64,000 nucleotides of DNA from Bacteroidales bacterium (GTDB lineage: Bacteria > Bacteroidota > Bacteroidia > Bacteroidales > VadinHA17): assembly GCA_020201035.1 (NCBI GenBank), contig JAIVHO010000002.1, forward strand, positions 1 through 64,000, written 5' to 3'. Under the pieces are notes generated by a model that searched no databases, was not told the DNA's origin, and saw only the letters and a list, made by a program, of their open reading frames with translations. The position numbers were made by a program, and so were the translations under genes. This document shows, piece by piece, positions 6,922-48,811 of the stretch; the first letter of the stretch is position 1, and the number at the start of each line of letters is the position of its first letter.

Positions 6922-7935
6922 ATGGTGACAGCGGAAGCAATAAAGATCAGGAAGGTGATGAATGAAATGGGAAGAGAGAAACGTCCTTTCTTCTTTATTG
7001 TGGATTTTGAGATGGAAAAGCCAGTGATCTGGCCTCTTGATGCTATCCCTTCATATATTGTTGCCGATATGCCGCTATTCAGCAACATTGAAGGAGAAGG
7101 AGCCGTCAGGCAGGGACTGGCTGCTCCTCGGGAGGCTGCTCCTCGGGAGGTTAAATCGCTGGAGGTTACCCCTGTAGCGTGGGAGAAATACCTGGAGGCA
7201 TACAACAAGGTTCTGGCAGGGCTTAACAGGGGCAACAGTTATCTTGTAAACCTTACATTTCCAACCTCGCTGGGTGGCCGGCCCGATCTGCAGGCAATAT
7301 TTTACGCAAGCAGGGCACGCTACCGGCTGTTGTGGCACGACAGGTTCGTGCTTTTTTCACCCGAGATATTTATCCGGACAGAGGGTAATACCATCTCCTC
7401 ATTTCCCATGAAGGGGACCATAGATGCCTCGGTTCCTGATGCTCAGAGGAAGATCCTTGAGGACAGAAAGGAGGAGGCTGAGCATAATACCATAGTAGAC
7501 CTTATACGGAACGATCTGAGTATGGTAGGAGAGGATGTGTATGTAAAAAGGTACAGGTATATCGACAAAATCAGAACATCGGATCGTGAACTGTTGCAGG
7601 TGAGTTCGGAGATCTCGGCCCGATTGCCTGATGACTGGAGGGAGCATCCCGGCGACATAATTATGCCTCTCCTCCCGGCCGGATCGGTCAGCGGAGCTCC
7701 AAAAAAAGAGACTCTCAGAATAATAGGTGAATCGGAGATGGCATCACGCGGATGGTTTACCGGGGTTTTCGGGGTGTTTGACGGTGAAAGGATTGACAGC
7801 GGTGTGATGATCCGGTATATTGAACATAATGAGCATAGCTATGTTTACAGAAGTGGGGGAGGTATCACCGCATTGAGTGATCCGCACAAAGAGTACAGTG
7901 AATTAATTTCCAAGGTTTATGTCCCTGTTGGTTGA
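6922..7935 (+). CDS. pabB: Aminodeoxychorismate synthase component I
   Basis: A 337-residue chorismate-binding enzyme that aminates chorismate to 4-amino-4-deoxychorismate for folate synthesis, with ammonia supplied by a glutaminase partner (possibly shared with TrpG). The motif FPMKGTID carries the Lys that is characteristic of PabB, whereas the TrpE encoded at 47-48.6 kb has PIAGT at the same place, so the two paralogues can be told apart. EAEHNTIVDLIRNDLS and GSVSGAPK are conserved active-site motifs. It is shorter than E. coli PabB (453) because the N-terminal regulatory half is reduced, as is usual in Bacteroidota. Near residue 70 a 15-bp duplication gives AAPREAAPRE. It overlaps pabC by 17 bp. 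Confidence 0.88.
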   Translation: MVTAEAIKIRKVMNEMGREKRPFFFIVDFEMEKPVIWPLDAIPSYIVADMPLFSNIEGEGAVRQGLAAPREAAPREVKSLEVTPVAWEKYLEAYNKVLAGLNRGNSYLVNLTFPTSLGGRPDLQAIFYASRARYRLLWHDRFVLFSPEIFIRTEGNTISSFPMKGTIDASVPDAQRKILEDRKEEAEHNTIVDLIRNDLSMVGEDVYVKRYRYIDKIRTSDRELLQVSSEISARLPDDWREHPGDIIMPLLPAGSVSGAPKKETLRIIGESEMASRGWFTGVFGVFDGERIDSGVMIRYIEHNEHSYVYRSGGGITALSDPHKEYSELISKVYVPVG

Positions 7936-41806: not shown

Positions 41807-42592
41807 TTAAATATGTTCCGGTGACAGCAACGAGGTTACAAATTCGCGGGTTGTAACCCGTATATCCCGGCTTTTTTCCAGGGCTTTGATATAGCCGCTG
41901 CCGGCAATTGCGCCTGCTGCGTATTGGCATGCGGTTGCAAATGTTGCATGGTTTGATATACCGAAGCCTGCTATCAGCGGGTTTTTCAGATTCATGCTGC
42001 TTACTCTTTTAAAGTACTCTTCCTGTGATGCATCGAAACTTTCCCTGCTGCCTGTTATGCTCCTGGAGGAAACCATATAGAGAAAGCCTGTTGCAAGATC
42101 ATCGAGCTGATGTATTCGTTCTTCAGTGGTATCCGGGGTTATCAGGAAAACTGATCTTAGCCCTGCTCCGTGGAAAATATCTCTGTACTCCCTGATAAAT
42201 ATGTCTGGTGGCAGGTCGGGAATAATAAATCCGTCAATGCCTGCATCATTACATGCATGGCAGAATTTTTCCGGACCGTACTGCAGCACCTGGTTAAAAT
42301 AGCCCATAAAGAGTACCGGTTGTTGAATGGACTTTCCTCCTTCCCTGACCTGTTCAAAGTAGAGGTTCATGTTGATACCGTTTTTCAGTGCTTCTTCACT
42401 GCTGTGCTGTATTGTTTTACCGTCTGCCACAGGGTCTGAGAAGGGCATACCGGCCTCAATCATATCAGCTCCTGCTTCTTCAGCAGCCCTGATAATCTCT
42501 GCTGTACTTTGCAGGTCGGGATAGCCTGCAGTAAAAAATAGTGACAGAATATTCTTCTGTTTCTTTTTAAAGAGAGCGTCAAGTCTGTTCAT
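41807..42592 (-). CDS. trpA: Tryptophan synthase alpha chain
   Basis: A 261-residue TIM-barrel subunit that cleaves indole-3-glycerol phosphate to indole and glyceraldehyde 3-phosphate and channels indole to TrpB. The catalytic Glu and Asp are in MIEAGMPFSDPVADG. FIIPDLPPD and LIAGFGISN are the usual loop and phosphate-binding segments. It is the last gene of the leftward trp operon, 25 bp after trpB. Length is normal. Confidence 0.96.
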   Translation of the reverse strand: MNRLDALFKKKQKNILSLFFTAGYPDLQSTAEIIRAAEEAGADMIEAGMPFSDPVADGKTIQHSSEEALKNGINMNLYFEQVREGGKSIQQPVLFMGYFNQVLQYGPEKFCHACNDAGIDGFIIPDLPPDIFIREYRDIFHGAGLRSVFLITPDTTEERIHQLDDLATGFLYMVSSRSITGSRESFDASQEEYFKRVSSMNLKNPLIAGFGISNHATFATACQYAAGAIAGSGYIKALEKSRDIRVTTREFVTSLLSPEHI

Positions 42593-42617
42593 CCTCTTGT
42601 ATTTTGTTTCAATTATC

Positions 42618-43832
42618 TTATTGGTGTGATTTTCCTCCGTTATGCTCTTTAATATACTTCAGGTAGGCTTCCATATCCTTATCGCCACGCCCTGATAGGT
42701 TAATAACCACTGTCTGGTCAGGAGTGAATTTTCTTTTCTCAAGAAATGCAAGTGCATGAGCCGATTCCAGGGCGGGGATTATTCCTTCAAGTTGCGTCAG
42801 CAAAAATGCAGCATCCATGGCTTCCCTGTCTGTGGCATGTTGAAAATTTACCCGGCCCTTCTGGTGGAGGTGTGCAAACAGGGGACCTATACCCGGATAA
42901 TCGAGTCCGGCCGAAACGGAGTAGGGTTCTGTAATCTGCCCGTCAGCATCCTGCATAACCACTGACAAACAGCCGTGTAATACTCCCGGCCTGCCAAGGG
43001 CTATTGTTGCTGCCGACTCTCCTGAGTCTACCCCATGGCCTGCTGCTTCTACTGCTATCAGTTCAACTTCCGGATGTTGGAGGTAATGGAAAAATGCTCC
43101 GGCTGCGTTGCTCCCTCCTCCCACACAGGCAATAACCGCATCTGGCAGGGGATTGCCGTTGTGCTGTTCAAGTTGTGCTTTGATCTCTTCACTGATAACT
43201 GACTGAAACCGGGTAACTATATCGGGGTAGGGGTGTGGCCCAACTATAGATCCGATAATATAATGGGTGTCGCACGGATTACTTATCCAGTCGCGCAGCG
43301 CCTCATTGGTTGCATCCTTCAGTGTTTTGTTGCCTGAATGCACAGGGACAACTGTTGCTCCCAGCATTTTCATCCTTTCAACGTTTGGTTGCTGTCGGGC
43401 CACATCAAGTGCGCCCATATAGACAACGCATTCGGTTCCGGTTAAGGCACATACTGTTGCCGTTGCCACACCGTGCTGTCCTGCGCCAGTTTCGGCAATA
43501 ATTCTTTTTTTGCCCAGGTGTCGGGCCAGAATGATCTGGCCAACAGTATTATTTATCTTATGCGCTCCTGTATGGTTGAGGTCTTCACGCTTCAGAAAAA
43601 TATTGGTGTTATAGTAATCTGATAGTCTGCCTGCACGGTATAGCGGACTGGGCCTGCCCACGTAGTCGCGCAGCAAACCGGTAAACTCCTCCCGGAACTC
43701 CCGGCTGTCGGTAATTTCCCGGTACCTGTTCTCAAGTTCCTTTAAATTGGGATACATCATCTCAGGTATATATGCTCCTCCGAAGCGACCGTAAAAACCG
43801 TTGTTATCAACTTCTCCTGTCACCTTATTCAT
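42618..43832 (-). CDS. trpB: Tryptophan synthase beta chain
   Basis: A 404-residue PLP enzyme that condenses indole with serine. The PLP Lys is in REDLNHTGAHKINNTVGQ, the phosphate loop is CVGGGSNAAGAF and the catalytic Glu lies in IAETGAGQHGVATAT. It is of the TrpB1 type that pairs with TrpA. It overlaps trpF by 8 bp. Confidence 0.97.
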   Translation of the reverse strand: MNKVTGEVDNNGFYGRFGGAYIPEMMYPNLKELENRYREITDSREFREEFTGLLRDYVGRPSPLYRAGRLSDYYNTNIFLKREDLNHTGAHKINNTVGQIILARHLGKKRIIAETGAGQHGVATATVCALTGTECVVYMGALDVARQQPNVERMKMLGATVVPVHSGNKTLKDATNEALRDWISNPCDTHYIIGSIVGPHPYPDIVTRFQSVISEEIKAQLEQHNGNPLPDAVIACVGGGSNAAGAFFHYLQHPEVELIAVEAAGHGVDSGESAATIALGRPGVLHGCLSVVMQDADGQITEPYSVSAGLDYPGIGPLFAHLHQKGRVNFQHATDREAMDAAFLLTQLEGIIPALESAHALAFLEKRKFTPDQTVVINLSGRGDKDMEAYLKYIKEHNGGKSHQ

Positions 43833-44457
43833 TGCGAATACTGTTTATAAAATTATTTACTGCAGTGGCATCCTTTATTCCCGGGGATGTCTCAAAGCCA
43901 CTGTTAATATCAATTCCGGCAAAAGATTTATGGCTGAAACCTATTATTGCCTCTACGTCTTCCGGCGATATCCCTCCGCTTATCAGGAAAGGTGTGTTAC
44001 CATTGTACTGTTTAAGTATCTCCCAGTTGAATTTTTTGCCGCTTCCTCCATAACCGGCAGAGGAGGTGTCAAACAGGAAGAGATCACATATGGCGCTGTA
44101 GGGCTCAACATCCGGAATCGTGTTACCTGATATCCTGAAAGCCCGGATAAGAGTTATTTTCTCTTTTTTTATGTTGCGGCAGTATTCCGGGGATTCATCA
44201 CCATGTAACTGAACAGCCTGAAGGTTGTGCCGCTTAACTATTGCCCTTACCGTCTCCTCCCTTTCATTTACAAAGACGCCGGTTTTTTTTATTGTCTCCG
44301 GCATATCGGAAGGAAGATCAGGGAATTGGTCATCCCCGACGTACCTTGGAGATCCCGGAAAGAAAATAAATCCCATATAATCGGGTAGGGACTCAGCCAC
44401 TTCCTTAATATTGCCGGTAAGGGTCATTCCGCAAACTTTTACAATAAGGCTATTCAT
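43825..44457 (-). CDS. trpF: Phosphoribosylanthranilate isomerase
   Basis: A 210-residue TIM barrel carrying out the Amadori rearrangement of phosphoribosylanthranilate. The catalytic Cys is in VKVCGMT and the Asp in LFLFDTSSAGYGGSG, with phosphate binding by FLISGGISPEDV. A monofunctional protein, separate from TrpC. It is separated from trpC by a 160-bp gap filled with simple repeats, which is unusual inside an otherwise overlapping operon. Confidence 0.94.
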   Translation of the reverse strand: MNSLIVKVCGMTLTGNIKEVAESLPDYMGFIFFPGSPRYVGDDQFPDLPSDMPETIKKTGVFVNEREETVRAIVKRHNLQAVQLHGDESPEYCRNIKKEKITLIRAFRISGNTIPDVEPYSAICDLFLFDTSSAGYGGSGKKFNWEILKQYNGNTPFLISGGISPEDVEAIIGFSHKSFAGIDINSGFETSPGIKDATAVNNFINSIRNE

Positions 44458-44462
44458 CTTTT

Positions 44463-44600
44463 GATGCTTTTTATCTTTTGATGCTTTTTTGTTCCGATGT
44501 TTTTCTGTTGTGGTGTTTTTCTGTTGTGGTGTTTTTCTGTTGTGGTGTTTTTTTGTTGCGATGTGTTTTTATTGCGAAGTCTTTTTTGTTCCGATGGTTT
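44463..44600. repeat. Simple repeats between trpF and trpC
   Basis: About three full copies of the 16-bp unit GTTTTTCTGTTGTGGT plus degenerate TTTTGATGC and TTTTGTTCCGATG copies. On the transcribed strand the tract is A/C-rich and probably unstructured. It is the only long gap within the trp operon. Confidence 0.85.
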
Positions 44601-44617
44601 TTACTTATAGAGGCTTT

Positions 44618-45421
44618 TCATTTTGCAGTTTTTTTTAGAAGGGCAAGTTCACTGATAAAATTTTCCAGCTCTTCCGTCGGTTGGGGATGTCTCATAAAGC
44701 GCTCTCCCATAAGGAAGCCACTGAACCCTGCCTCACGGAGACTGTGAACCTCTTCGGGTTTGTTAAGGCCACTCTCTGTTATCCATATCCTGTCCCGGGG
44801 CAGAGAAGCAGCCAGTCGGGCCGACAGGCCGGTATCTACGGTGAAATCTTTAAGGTTGCGGTTGTTAACGCCTACATAGTCAATTTGTTCGGTGATATGG
44901 TCAAGCTCTTCTGCGCTATGGATCTCCAGGAGTGTCTGCAATCCCAGTGAGCGCGCCAGAGAGGCCAGGGTACGGATTTCTGCCGGGGTCATAAGGGCTG
45001 CTATCAGAAGTATAATATCTGCACCAATGCTTTTCGATTCAATAACATGGTATTCAGATGTGATAAAGTCTTTTCTCAGGAGTGGCAGGCTCACATGTGA
45101 TCTCACTGCTGTGAAGTCATCTGCGGAACCGCCGAACCATTTCTGCTCCGTAAGTACGGATATGGCAGAAGCTCCTGCTTTTGCATATCCTGAAACCACG
45201 GGAGCGGGATCTTTTATATCATTGATTATCCCTTTTGAGGGTGATTTGCGTTTGAACTCTGCTATAATACCTGATGCTCCGGGATCTGCGAGAGCATCAG
45301 ACAGTGATATGGTTTCGCGGGTAAAAAGGGCACTCTTTTCCAGTATCGCATATGGAGTTTGGGCGGCTCTTGAGTTAGCAGCCTCTCTGGCATCAGCAGC
45401 TATTGTTTCAAGGATATTCAT
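44618..45421 (-). CDS. trpC: Indole-3-glycerol phosphate synthase
   Basis: A 267-residue TIM barrel that closes the indole ring. The conserved IIAEFKRKSPSKG loop carries the catalytic Lys; LLRKDFI, LLEIHSAEEL, GVNNRNLKDF and ITESGLNKPEEV match the other phosphate and active-site segments. It starts within the last codons of trpD (4-bp ATGA overlap), so translation is coupled. Confidence 0.96.
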   Translation of the reverse strand: MNILETIAADAREAANSRAAQTPYAILEKSALFTRETISLSDALADPGASGIIAEFKRKSPSKGIINDIKDPAPVVSGYAKAGASAISVLTEQKWFGGSADDFTAVRSHVSLPLLRKDFITSEYHVIESKSIGADIILLIAALMTPAEIRTLASLARSLGLQTLLEIHSAEELDHITEQIDYVGVNNRNLKDFTVDTGLSARLAASLPRDRIWITESGLNKPEEVHSLREAGFSGFLMGERFMRHPQPTEELENFISELALLKKTAK

Positions 45422-46410
45422 TGCATTGAGATTAGTTTGTTCAGTGACTCCAATGCTCTTCCCGAGTCAAGGGATTCTGTTGCCATCGCGAAAGTGTCAG
45501 TCAGACTCATTTCAGGATAATAGCATTTGAGTGCAACGGCAGAATTTGCCAGTACCACGTTCCTTTGGGCTGTAGTGCCCTCTCCCTCTAAAATATTCCT
45601 GAAGATGCGCGCCGATTCCTCCGGTGTTGATCCACCGGCGAGATCTTCGGGCTTTAACTGCGGAAGAAGGAACGTTTCAGGGCCCAGTAATAATTCGGTA
45701 TGGCCCGACAGGTACTTAAATGGTGAGGTGAGTGATACTTCATCATATCCGTCGAGTGAATGGATAATTATATACTCCTTGCCGCCAGTCTGGTATAGAT
45801 AGTTATATAATCTGGCTACGGCCGGACTGAAGACACCTACCATCTGTTTGTCAGGAAATGCCGGATTCACCATTGGCCCCAGCATATTAAAAAAGGTTTT
45901 GACCTTCAGACTCCGTCGGACAGGTACCACATTTTTCATGGCGGGATTGAAGAGGGGGGCATGCATAAAGCATACTCCTGTTTTTTCAAGTTCCCTTTTC
46001 AGCTTGTCGTTATCTGCCGAGAATCTGTAACCGAGCAACTCCATCACATTGGATGAACCACACGAGGAGGATACTGCATAATTGCCATGCTTGGCTACCA
46101 GGGCGCCTGCTCCGGCAGTGATAAAGACGGCGATTGTGGATATATTGAATGTATCCTTGCCGTCGCCGCCCGTTCCGCAGAGATCAATAGTATCAAAACC
46201 GTTCAGATCAACCCGCCTGCAGAGGTTAAGCAGTGCGTCCCTGAAGCCTGACATCTCATCAACAGTGACTGCTCTCATCAGGTAGACCGTTATAAAGGCA
46301 GCTATTTCAGGATCACTGTAGCTGCCACTTGCAATGTTTGTAAGTACCTCTTCAGCTTCACTTTTTGTAAGTGTTTTATGGTCAAAGAGATGATTGAGAA
46401 TTTTTTTCAT
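45418..46410 (-). CDS. trpD: Anthranilate phosphoribosyltransferase
   Basis: A 330-residue enzyme that joins anthranilate to PRPP. The PRPP/Mg motif is DLCGTGGDGKDTFNIST; KHGNYAVSSSCGSSNVMELL and FMHAPLFNPAMKNVVPVRR are the anthranilate channel motifs. It is not fused to a glutaminase. It abuts trpG with a TAATG stop-start and overlaps trpC by 4 bp. Confidence 0.96.
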   Translation of the reverse strand: MKKILNHLFDHKTLTKSEAEEVLTNIASGSYSDPEIAAFITVYLMRAVTVDEMSGFRDALLNLCRRVDLNGFDTIDLCGTGGDGKDTFNISTIAVFITAGAGALVAKHGNYAVSSSCGSSNVMELLGYRFSADNDKLKRELEKTGVCFMHAPLFNPAMKNVVPVRRSLKVKTFFNMLGPMVNPAFPDKQMVGVFSPAVARLYNYLYQTGGKEYIIIHSLDGYDEVSLTSPFKYLSGHTELLLGPETFLLPQLKPEDLAGGSTPEESARIFRNILEGEGTTAQRNVVLANSAVALKCYYPEMSLTDTFAMATESLDSGRALESLNKLISMQ

Positions 46411-47033
46411 TATATCCTGTTTCTGCTTATTGGTTCAATCACATTTAGTGTTGGAGCAGGTACCCCAAGCCAGTTTGCCATTATATGCAACCCCTCGGGG
46501 GTCATAACAGACTCCGGGTGAAACTGGAGTCCGTGCAGATCATACAAGGTATGCCTTATTCCCATTACCAGTCCGTCAGCACTGAGTGATGTTACCTTAA
46601 GTGATTCACCGAGTGAAAGGGGATCCACAACCCATGAATGGTAGTGCCCAACTGTAAGCTCGGGGCCAATATCCCGGAAAAGATATTCATCATTGTCGGT
46701 TACCCTTGTTTTACCCGTTATTCCGTGAAGCACTGATTCGAGGTTGATAAGTTTTCCCCCGAAGACTTCAGCTATAGCCTGATGCCCCAGGCAGATGCCA
46801 AGAATGCTTTTGTCGGAGGCATACCTCCTTATTACTTCCAGAGTTATCCCTGCTTCCGATGGTATTCCTGGTCCGGGTGAAAGAAGGATACGGTCATATT
46901 TCTCAAGATCCTCCACCACTGCTTCATCGTTTCTGATCACATCAGGTTTTGATCCGGTCAGTATGCGGATATATTCAACCAGGTTATAGGTGAATGAATC
47001 ATAATTGTCAAGCACAACTGTACTGTTCATCAT
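46410..47033 (-). CDS. trpG: Anthranilate synthase glutamine amidotransferase subunit
   Basis: A 207-residue class I glutaminase that provides ammonia to TrpE. The catalytic Cys is in GICLGHQAIAEVFGG, and the His and Glu in LQFHPESVMTPEG. HSWVVDP is a conserved loop. It may also serve PabB, since no second glutaminase accompanies pabB here (inference). It starts at a TAATG overlapping the trpE stop; a second ATG follows immediately and could be used instead. Confidence 0.95.
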   Translation of the reverse strand: MMNSTVVLDNYDSFTYNLVEYIRILTGSKPDVIRNDEAVVEDLEKYDRILLSPGPGIPSEAGITLEVIRRYASDKSILGICLGHQAIAEVFGGKLINLESVLHGITGKTRVTDNDEYLFRDIGPELTVGHYHSWVVDPLSLGESLKVTSLSADGLVMGIRHTLYDLHGLQFHPESVMTPEGLHIMANWLGVPAPTLNVIEPISRNRI

Positions 47034-48577
47034 TATATGTTTTTAGCAATAGTTACTGCCCTGCGCAGGGCTCCCAGTTTATTGTTTACCTCATTTAATT
47101 CAGTGGCAGGATCAGAACCGGCAACAATTCCGGCACCTGCCCTGTAAATAAGGGTGTTGTCTTTGCTCAGGAAGGTTCTTATCATAATGGCATGGTTAAA
47201 ATCACCGTTAAAACCAATAAAGCCTATCGCTCCGCCGTAGAAGCTCCTTCTGTCTGATTCAATACTGTTTATAAGCTGCATTGCCCTGTGTTTGGGCGCA
47301 CCCGTTAACGTTCCGGCCGGGAATGTGGCTGCCAGCATATCAATTGAATCGGTCTCCTTGTTGAGAACACCCGATACGGTTGAAACCATATGGATAACAT
47401 GCGAGTAGTACTGAATCTCACGCAATGATTCTATCTTAATATCAGAAGCATGCCGTCCAAGATCATTTCTGGCAAGATCAACCAGCATGATATGTTCCGA
47501 GTTTTCTTTTGGGTCATCCATAAGCTTAAGGGCAAGTTCCTTGTCGCTGGCGTCATCCCCGGTGCGCCTGAATGTGCCCGCAATGGGATTTATTGTTGCC
47601 TTCCTTTTTTCTACTTTAAGGTGTGCCTCTGGTGATGAGCCGAAGATGCGGTAATTGCCGTAATCAAAATAGAAGAGGTATGGTGAGGGGTTCACCGAGC
47701 GCAGACTGCGGTAAACATTAAACTCATCACCCCTGAATCTGAGTGAAAACTTTCTGGAAAGCACAATCTGTAGTATATTTCCCCTGAAACAATGCTCTTT
47801 CCCCTTTTTAACCATTTCCATAAACTCCTGTTCACTGATGCCTGCCTTCTCATCGTCAATGGTATCAAAACTGTATCCGGGGATATTTCGGTTGGCAATA
47901 AGTGATACAATGGAATCACTGTTACTTTGCTCACCCTCTGACAAAAACTCGGTTATGGTAAGCTCATTCCTGAAATGATTGATGGCAATAACATACCTGT
48001 AAAGGGTATAAACCATATCCGGAATGCTCTCTTCCTGTTGGGCATCTCCCTTTATATCTGTTTTTTCAAAATAGCGTACCGTGTCATAGGAGGTATAGCC
48101 AAAGAGTCCGGCAAAGGGTTGGGAGGTATCATCACCTTCAATCTGAAATGCCCCTGAAAAGCTTCTGAACAACTCCTTCAGATCAGGGTGCACCGGATTG
48201 GGTCTTTTAGGATCGTGGTTCTTCGGAGCATTGTTCTTCAGATCGGGGTCATTCAAGTCTGAGTTTTTCAGATCGTGGTTCTTCAGGTCTGTGCTTTTCA
48301 GGGTGGGGGGGTGCAGATTTTTACCCTTTATACCGGGTGTGAATCTCTTTTCCTCACCGTCAGGGAAATGGTACAACACCTCCCCGTTATCCAGAATAAA
48401 CCAGGCCTGCGGCTTGAGGCAGATAAAGGAGTAGCTGTCACTTGCTGCGTGATAGTCTGAACTCTCCAGAAGGAGGGAGTTGGGGTATATATCGCGTGCC
48501 TTAAGATATATGCTTACCGGTGTTACCGTATCGGCAAGTATTTTTCTGCTGACTGTTCTTATTTTGTACCTCTTCAT
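47033..48577 (-). CDS. trpE: Anthranilate synthase component I with internal low-complexity insert
   Basis: A 514-residue chorismate-binding enzyme that makes anthranilate. NPIAGTFRRTGDDASDKELA has the PIAGT form of TrpE (PabB has Lys here), and LVDLARNDLGRHA and GTLTGAPKHRAMQLI are active-site motifs. LLESSDYHAASDSYSFIC near residue 40 matches the tryptophan-feedback LLES-type site. Residues about 92-135 are an insert of repeated DLKNHD/DLKNSD/DLKNNA/DPKRPN units, encoded by a 15-bp tandem repeat, not found in usual TrpE. The start is an ATG with AGGAG nine bases upstream. A leader peptide and attenuator precede it. Confidence 0.95.
   Translation of the reverse strand: MKRYKIRTVSRKILADTVTPVSIYLKARDIYPNSLLLESSDYHAASDSYSFICLKPQAWFILDNGEVLYHFPDGEEKRFTPGIKGKNLHPPTLKSTDLKNHDLKNSDLNDPDLKNNAPKNHDPKRPNPVHPDLKELFRSFSGAFQIEGDDTSQPFAGLFGYTSYDTVRYFEKTDIKGDAQQEESIPDMVYTLYRYVIAINHFRNELTITEFLSEGEQSNSDSIVSLIANRNIPGYSFDTIDDEKAGISEQEFMEMVKKGKEHCFRGNILQIVLSRKFSLRFRGDEFNVYRSLRSVNPSPYLFYFDYGNYRIFGSSPEAHLKVEKRKATINPIAGTFRRTGDDASDKELALKLMDDPKENSEHIMLVDLARNDLGRHASDIKIESLREIQYYSHVIHMVSTVSGVLNKETDSIDMLAATFPAGTLTGAPKHRAMQLINSIESDRRSFYGGAIGFIGFNGDFNHAIMIRTFLSKDNTLIYRAGAGIVAGSDPATELNEVNNKLGALRRAVTIAKNI
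48185..48310. repeat. In-frame 15-bp tandem repeat in trpE
   Basis: Degenerate copies of TTCTTCAGATCGTGG (15 bp, sometimes paired as 30 bp) encode repeated Asp-Leu-Lys-Asn-X on the - strand. It inserts about 40 polar residues into the N-terminal half of TrpE without breaking the frame. Confidence 0.88.
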
Positions 48578-48634: not shown

Positions 48635-48665
48635 AAAAACGGCTTACCGTGAGTACGATAAGCCG
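48635..48665 (-). terminator. trp attenuator terminator
   Basis: On the - strand CGGCTTA (48659-48665), a 12-nt loop, TAAGCCG (48640-48646) and TTTTT (48635-48639) form an intrinsic terminator 58 bp upstream of the trpE ATG and downstream of the leader peptide. Its 5' arm and its loop are both complementary to the antiterminator segment at 48693-48706. Confidence 0.85.
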
Positions 48666-48692
48666 CTAAAATTTATATTATCAAATAACAAA

Positions 48693-48706
48693 CAGCTACC
48701 TCACGG
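48693..48706 (-). promoter_or_regulatory. Antiterminator segment of the trp leader
   Basis: On the - strand CCGTGAGGTAGCTG overlaps the leader stop codon. CCGTGAG (48700-48706) pairs perfectly with CTCACGG (48647-48653) in the terminator loop. TAGCTG (48693-48698) pairs with CGGCTTA (48659-48665), the 5' arm of the terminator, with one bulge and one G-U. The two helices are collinear, so forming them excludes the terminator. Confidence 0.75.
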
Positions 48707-48757
48707 ATCTATTATTTCCCTGAGCCACCACCAGTTTGTATTGATTGTAAAATCCAT
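48701..48757 (-). CDS. trpL: trp operon leader peptide with three consecutive Trp codons
   Basis: An ATG at 48757 opens an 18-codon frame, MDFTINTNWWWLREIIDP, ending in TGA at 48701-48703. The three adjacent TGG codons (48725-48733) are the sensor. A ribosome waiting there for charged tRNA-Trp would leave the segment 48693-48706 free to form the antiterminator. A ribosome that reaches the stop would cover that segment and let the terminator form. The frame lies just behind a good Bacteroidota promoter and directly upstream of trpE, with a GCAGGG that may help ribosome binding. The symbol is given by function; the sequence is not related to E. coli TrpL. Confidence 0.85.
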   Translation of the reverse strand: MDFTINTNWWWLREIIDP

Positions 48758-48778
48758 TTTCTATTTTGTTTGACCCTG

Positions 48779-48811
48779 CAAATATAAAGCATATTTATTG
48801 TTGTAAACAAA
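48779..48811 (-). promoter_or_regulatory. Promoter of the trp operon
   Basis: On the - strand TTTG (48808-48811), 21 bp and TATATTTG (48779-48786) match the phylum consensus fully. The start point should fall about 10-15 nt upstream of the leader ATG at 48757. The 308-bp gap 48578-48885 is explained by this promoter, the leader and the divergent SDR upstream region. Confidence 0.7.

Follow-up and report, generated by a model that had tools for sequence, protein, structure and literature searches.

The E. coli trp leader, trpL, follows a strand 1-2-3-4 logic in which tandem Trp codons lie in strand 1 and the terminator is formed by strands 3 and 4. In Bacteroidetes, a cis-regulatory candidate named Bacteroid-trp was published in 2010 (Weinberg et al., PMC2864571), is listed in Rfam under the title 'Bacteroidete tryptophan peptide leader RNA' (RF01692), and is noted ahead of the trp operon of Flavobacterium psychrophilum (PMC6414381). 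Our literature search found no detailed study of trp attenuation in Bacteroidota. Here we describe the region upstream of trpE in a 64 kb stretch of Bacteroidales DNA, referred to as the window. With a probability of roughly 0.95, it carries a Bacteroid-trp-type transcription attenuator mediated by the ribosome; we infer its regulatory behaviour from sequence, predicted folding and comparison with relatives.

Results

Architecture of the trpE leader

The leader occupies the − strand of the gap that separates trpE (48577) from a divergently oriented SDR-family gene (48886, + strand), and a reading of the sequence located every element named in the initial annotation on that strand, upstream of trpEGDCFBA. 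The putatively controlled operon, trpE-trpG-trpD-trpC-trpF-trpB-trpA (41807–48577, − strand), was assigned from open reading frames and NCBIfam matches, and the closest named relatives of its TrpE are from Bacteroidota. This TrpE contains a repetitive insert, LKSTDLKNHDLKNSDLNDPDLKNNAPKNHDPKRPNP..., at 48180–48310 (residues about 90–132), and family TrpE matches mostly start downstream of it. Another chorismate-binding enzyme, possibly pabB- or menF-like, is encoded elsewhere in the window (7183–7914, + strand).

As had been proposed, a Bacteroidota-type promoter, TTTG-N21-TATATTTG, is present at 48811–48779 on the − strand, with TTTG at 48811–48808 and TATATTTG at 48786–48779; in most relatives TTTGC is retained at a comparable spacing 5′ of the leader ATG. 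Transcription would start near 48773–48770. The 18-codon leader peptide frame, MDFTINTNWWWLREIIDP, likewise reads as described (48757–48701, − strand), running from the ATG at 48757 to a UGA stop (TGA, 48703–48701), with three adjacent Trp codons, UGG-UGG-UGG, at 48733–48725 in the peptide context NWWWL. Amongst 1487 short ATG frames (up to 40 aa) in the window, it is the sole frame containing WWW.

Folding and a terminator scan of leaders place an intrinsic terminator, CGGCUUAUCGU ACUC ACGGUAAGCCG followed by UUUUU, at 48665–48635 (− strand), with the hairpin at 48665–48640 and the T5 tract after it. The terminator and its T5 before trpE had been correctly recognised, but the stem had been drawn too short: because the loop-side UCGU and ACGG also pair, the minimum free energy (MFE) fold gives a stem CGGCUUAUCGU/ACGGUAAGCCG of 11–12 bp closed by the loop ACUC. 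The leader fold has a z score of −3.84. A terminator scan paired with a sigma-70 scan, which does not cover Bacteroidota promoters, overlooked this terminator.

A segment overlapping the leader stop codon, CCGTGAGGTAGCTG / CCGUGAGGUAGCUG (48706–48693, − strand), forms the 5′ strand of a predicted antiterminator, identified from duplex energy and alignment. It is able to pair with both the loop and the 5′ arm of the terminator, as the initial annotation had claimed, in a duplex of −18.3 kcal/mol that none of 100 shuffles matched. The MFE fold also predicts a 1:2 (anti-antiterminator) hairpin at 48745–48680 (− strand), pairing AUCAAUACAAACUGGUGG.. with ..AGCUGUUUGUUAUUUGAU, where the initial annotation had seen no separate 1:2 pause hairpin. 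RF01692 has its consensus stem between the same two regions, and the Rfam alignment also predicts the stem in the window, with some non-standard pairs; in alignment A1 the consensus on the two sides of the hairpin is UAUACAAAU and AUUUGUAUA. Swapping the stem partners gave a modest difference (own −13.4 kcal/mol, swapped −12.2 kcal/mol). Given this predicted hairpin, the layout is that of a full E. coli-like 1-2-3-4 scheme, and the earlier view of a design simpler than that of E. coli does not hold.

The trpE leader thus shares its strand logic with E. coli trpL (Rfam Trp_leader) while being unrelated to it in sequence, as first noted, and Trp_leader had no match in the trpE leader region. Unlike in trpL, the stop codon of the leader is itself part of strand 2.

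Relation to RF01692

RF01692 aligns over its full length (model positions 1–131) at the trpE leader, which is the best match genome-wide, with a score of 28.0 bits against a gathering cut-off of 49 bits. At the gathering threshold, Rfam returned two tRNAs only; weak matches in the region to GibS, microRNA families and XIST were below cut-off and were taken as chance. Among 117 family genomes, one match exceeded the RF01692 cut-off, and 42 genomes had a match at E ≤ 1.

The locus has three traits of the Rfam family: a short frame with adjacent Trp codons (NWWWL), a predicted consensus stem from the Trp-codon region to a segment past the stop, and a site ahead of Bacteroidota genes for tryptophan biosynthesis. 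Shared with Bacteroid-trp are thus the phylum, the site before trp genes, the Trp-rich leader frame, and a 1:2 stem with the Trp codons on its 5′ side followed by a terminator, whereas the peptide and loop sequences differ. Four above-threshold Bacteroid-trp loci (L162–L165) are laid out in the same way; at their stop codon stands GUCGUAAG or GUCGUGA, and the terminator loop matches it. The Rfam model itself stops inside the terminator 5′ arm and includes neither terminator nor antiterminator. Judged by its predicted anatomy and its place, the trpE leader is a divergent relative of RF01692 that scores below the formal cut-off; the initial annotation knew of no detailed description of this leader type for the group, which had in fact been catalogued in 2010.

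Conservation and covariation across the family

The leader was compared with trpE upstream regions of those family genomes in which TrpE matched strongly. A Trp-rich short frame precedes trpE in all 48 other family regions with enough upstream DNA, a count that leaves out the sole fetched region without such a frame, which is interrupted by a contig end (G096). The frames take the forms WWW, WRWW and WCWW, with SWWGWW in one group of genera. More widely, a frame with clustered Trp codons lies within 500 bases upstream of trpE at 73 of 74 loci from named Bacteroidota genomes. Automatic detection of a stem followed by T found a terminator in at least 44 family leaders; in three others (G080, G060 and G048) the stem is visible and the T-run rule failed, and G016 was left out of this test.

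Two departures from the common form were observed. One genus group (L051, L052, L055 and L057; genomes G024, G016, G017 and G023, respectively) has a deviant leader, MNY.NRNN.WWGWWTWIN.RDR.TL.C, with the variants SWRGWW in G016 and WCWCLW in G023, and its terminator differs as well where detected (ACCUCCCGG...). At another locus (L053, genome G021), two consecutive Trp-rich frames, NWWWH and AWWWQW, each with a terminator, lie ahead of one trpE, which suggests a doubled attenuator.

The alignment check proposed at the outset also bore out covariation in both stems, counted on an alignment of 29 leaders. The terminator covaries strongly across relatives, with 98.6% of cells paired and both-side changes in 10 of 12 pairs. 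The antiterminator core, formed between the leader stop codon and the terminator loop, covaries too: 83% of cells are paired, with both-side changes in four of seven pairs. Leaders with a UGA stop mostly carry UCA in the loop, and those with UAA mostly carry UUA. Taken as a whole, the antiterminator had a covariation score of 0.177, higher than any of 500 shuffles or any slid register; kinship alone can beat shuffles without any structure, so more weight falls on the slid registers and on the swap test. In the swap test, 2:3 duplexes averaged −14.1 kcal/mol with their own partners, −11.3 kcal/mol after partners were exchanged among genomes and −8.6 kcal/mol when shuffled. In its outer half, where AGCUG meets the 5′ arm, the antiterminator is paired in just 44% of alignment cells, and its exact form therefore varies. 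Antiterminator and terminator are mutually exclusive and both conserved, as are, in a frame predicted to be translated, the regulatory codons for the amino acid of the pathway.

Proposed mechanism and alternatives

In the proposed mechanism, transcription would begin near 48773 and a ribosome would start on the 18-codon leader. With charged tRNA-Trp in short supply, this ribosome would stall at UGG-UGG-UGG and cover strand 1, blocking the 1:2 hairpin and leaving strand 2, the stop-codon segment, free to pair with the emerging strand 3 (terminator 5′ arm and loop), so that polymerase would read through into trpE. When Trp is plentiful, a ribosome at the stop codon would cover strand 2 and the 3:4 terminator would form; with no translation, the 1:2 hairpin would form and termination would follow likewise.

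Folding of the window leader was computed for a transcript that ends once the loop is complete, with the ribosome-covered stretch masked; the footprint was assumed to reach 12 nt past the initial base of the codon in the A site. The antiterminator probability was 0.97 whichever Trp codon occupied the A site and 0.00 for a ribosome at the stop codon, in line with the switch first proposed, in which a stalled ribosome frees the segment and one at the stop codon covers it. At the same length and without a ribosome, the 1:2 hairpin had a probability of 0.73. Once the full stem is transcribed, the terminator dominates the equilibrium fold in every ribosome state, and the switch must therefore be kinetic, operating during transcription. 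A decision during transcription is established for other attenuators.

The terminator is separated from the trpE ATG by about 60 nt, a spacing that could also fit a leader acting mainly in translation, by masking the trpE start, or via an RNA-binding protein, for example TRAP, with the Trp codons incidental. We regard this as very unlikely, given the strong terminator with its U tract, the phylum-wide conservation of the Trp codons and the position of the antiterminator on the stop codon; moreover, our reading of the leader saw no run of TRAP-like GAG/UAG repeats. That a WWW frame and a hairpin precede trpE by chance might seem compatible with the sub-threshold Rfam score, but we reject it as having a negligible probability, already refuted by the comparative data: the frame is conserved in all complete relatives, two alternative stems covary, and no other short frame in the window contains WWW.

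Ribosome-mediated trp attenuation is strongly supported as the predicted mode of control by conservation, covariation and position. The interpretation in the initial annotation stands in this respect, and falls in two points, the simpler design and the undescribed type.

A second leader before trpB2

Many RF01692 matches in relatives precede not trpE but a solitary trpB2, encoding a TrpB-like enzyme of about 450 aa, with leader peptides such as MKIGNLYNWWWRSS. The genome of the window has its own, MIKGHNWCWHGKKNITVSNAVML, on another contig (G000 contig C29, L078:1337–1408) with trpB2 downstream; the leader region including its terminator spans L078:1337–1470, and a strand, CUGUGAGC, is able to pair with the terminator loop. 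Leaders built like the one at trpE, with Trp codons, terminator and antiterminator, precede a solitary trpB2 in the window genome and at least 14 family relatives (L005, L058–L062, L064–L066, L068, L070 and L072–L074), and RF01692 misses them or scores them under its cut-off. Among the RF01692 matches outside trpE that were read, others were set aside as chance: those in G002, G083 and G085, with unrelated genes downstream and without a Trp-rich frame, and one in G008, also without such a frame. Our literature search found no description of a Trp leader before trpB2.

Discussion

These comparisons add support, from covariation in both antiterminator and terminator, to a leader class that is only partly modelled in Rfam and most of whose members in this family RF01692 misses at its cut-off. 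The lineage probably has two separate Trp attenuators of the same design, one at the trp operon and one at the solitary trpB2, and at trpE the stop codon itself would be the switching strand, coevolving with the terminator loop. The leaders before trpB2 suggest that these bacteria regulate TrpB2 as they would a gene of tryptophan biosynthesis.
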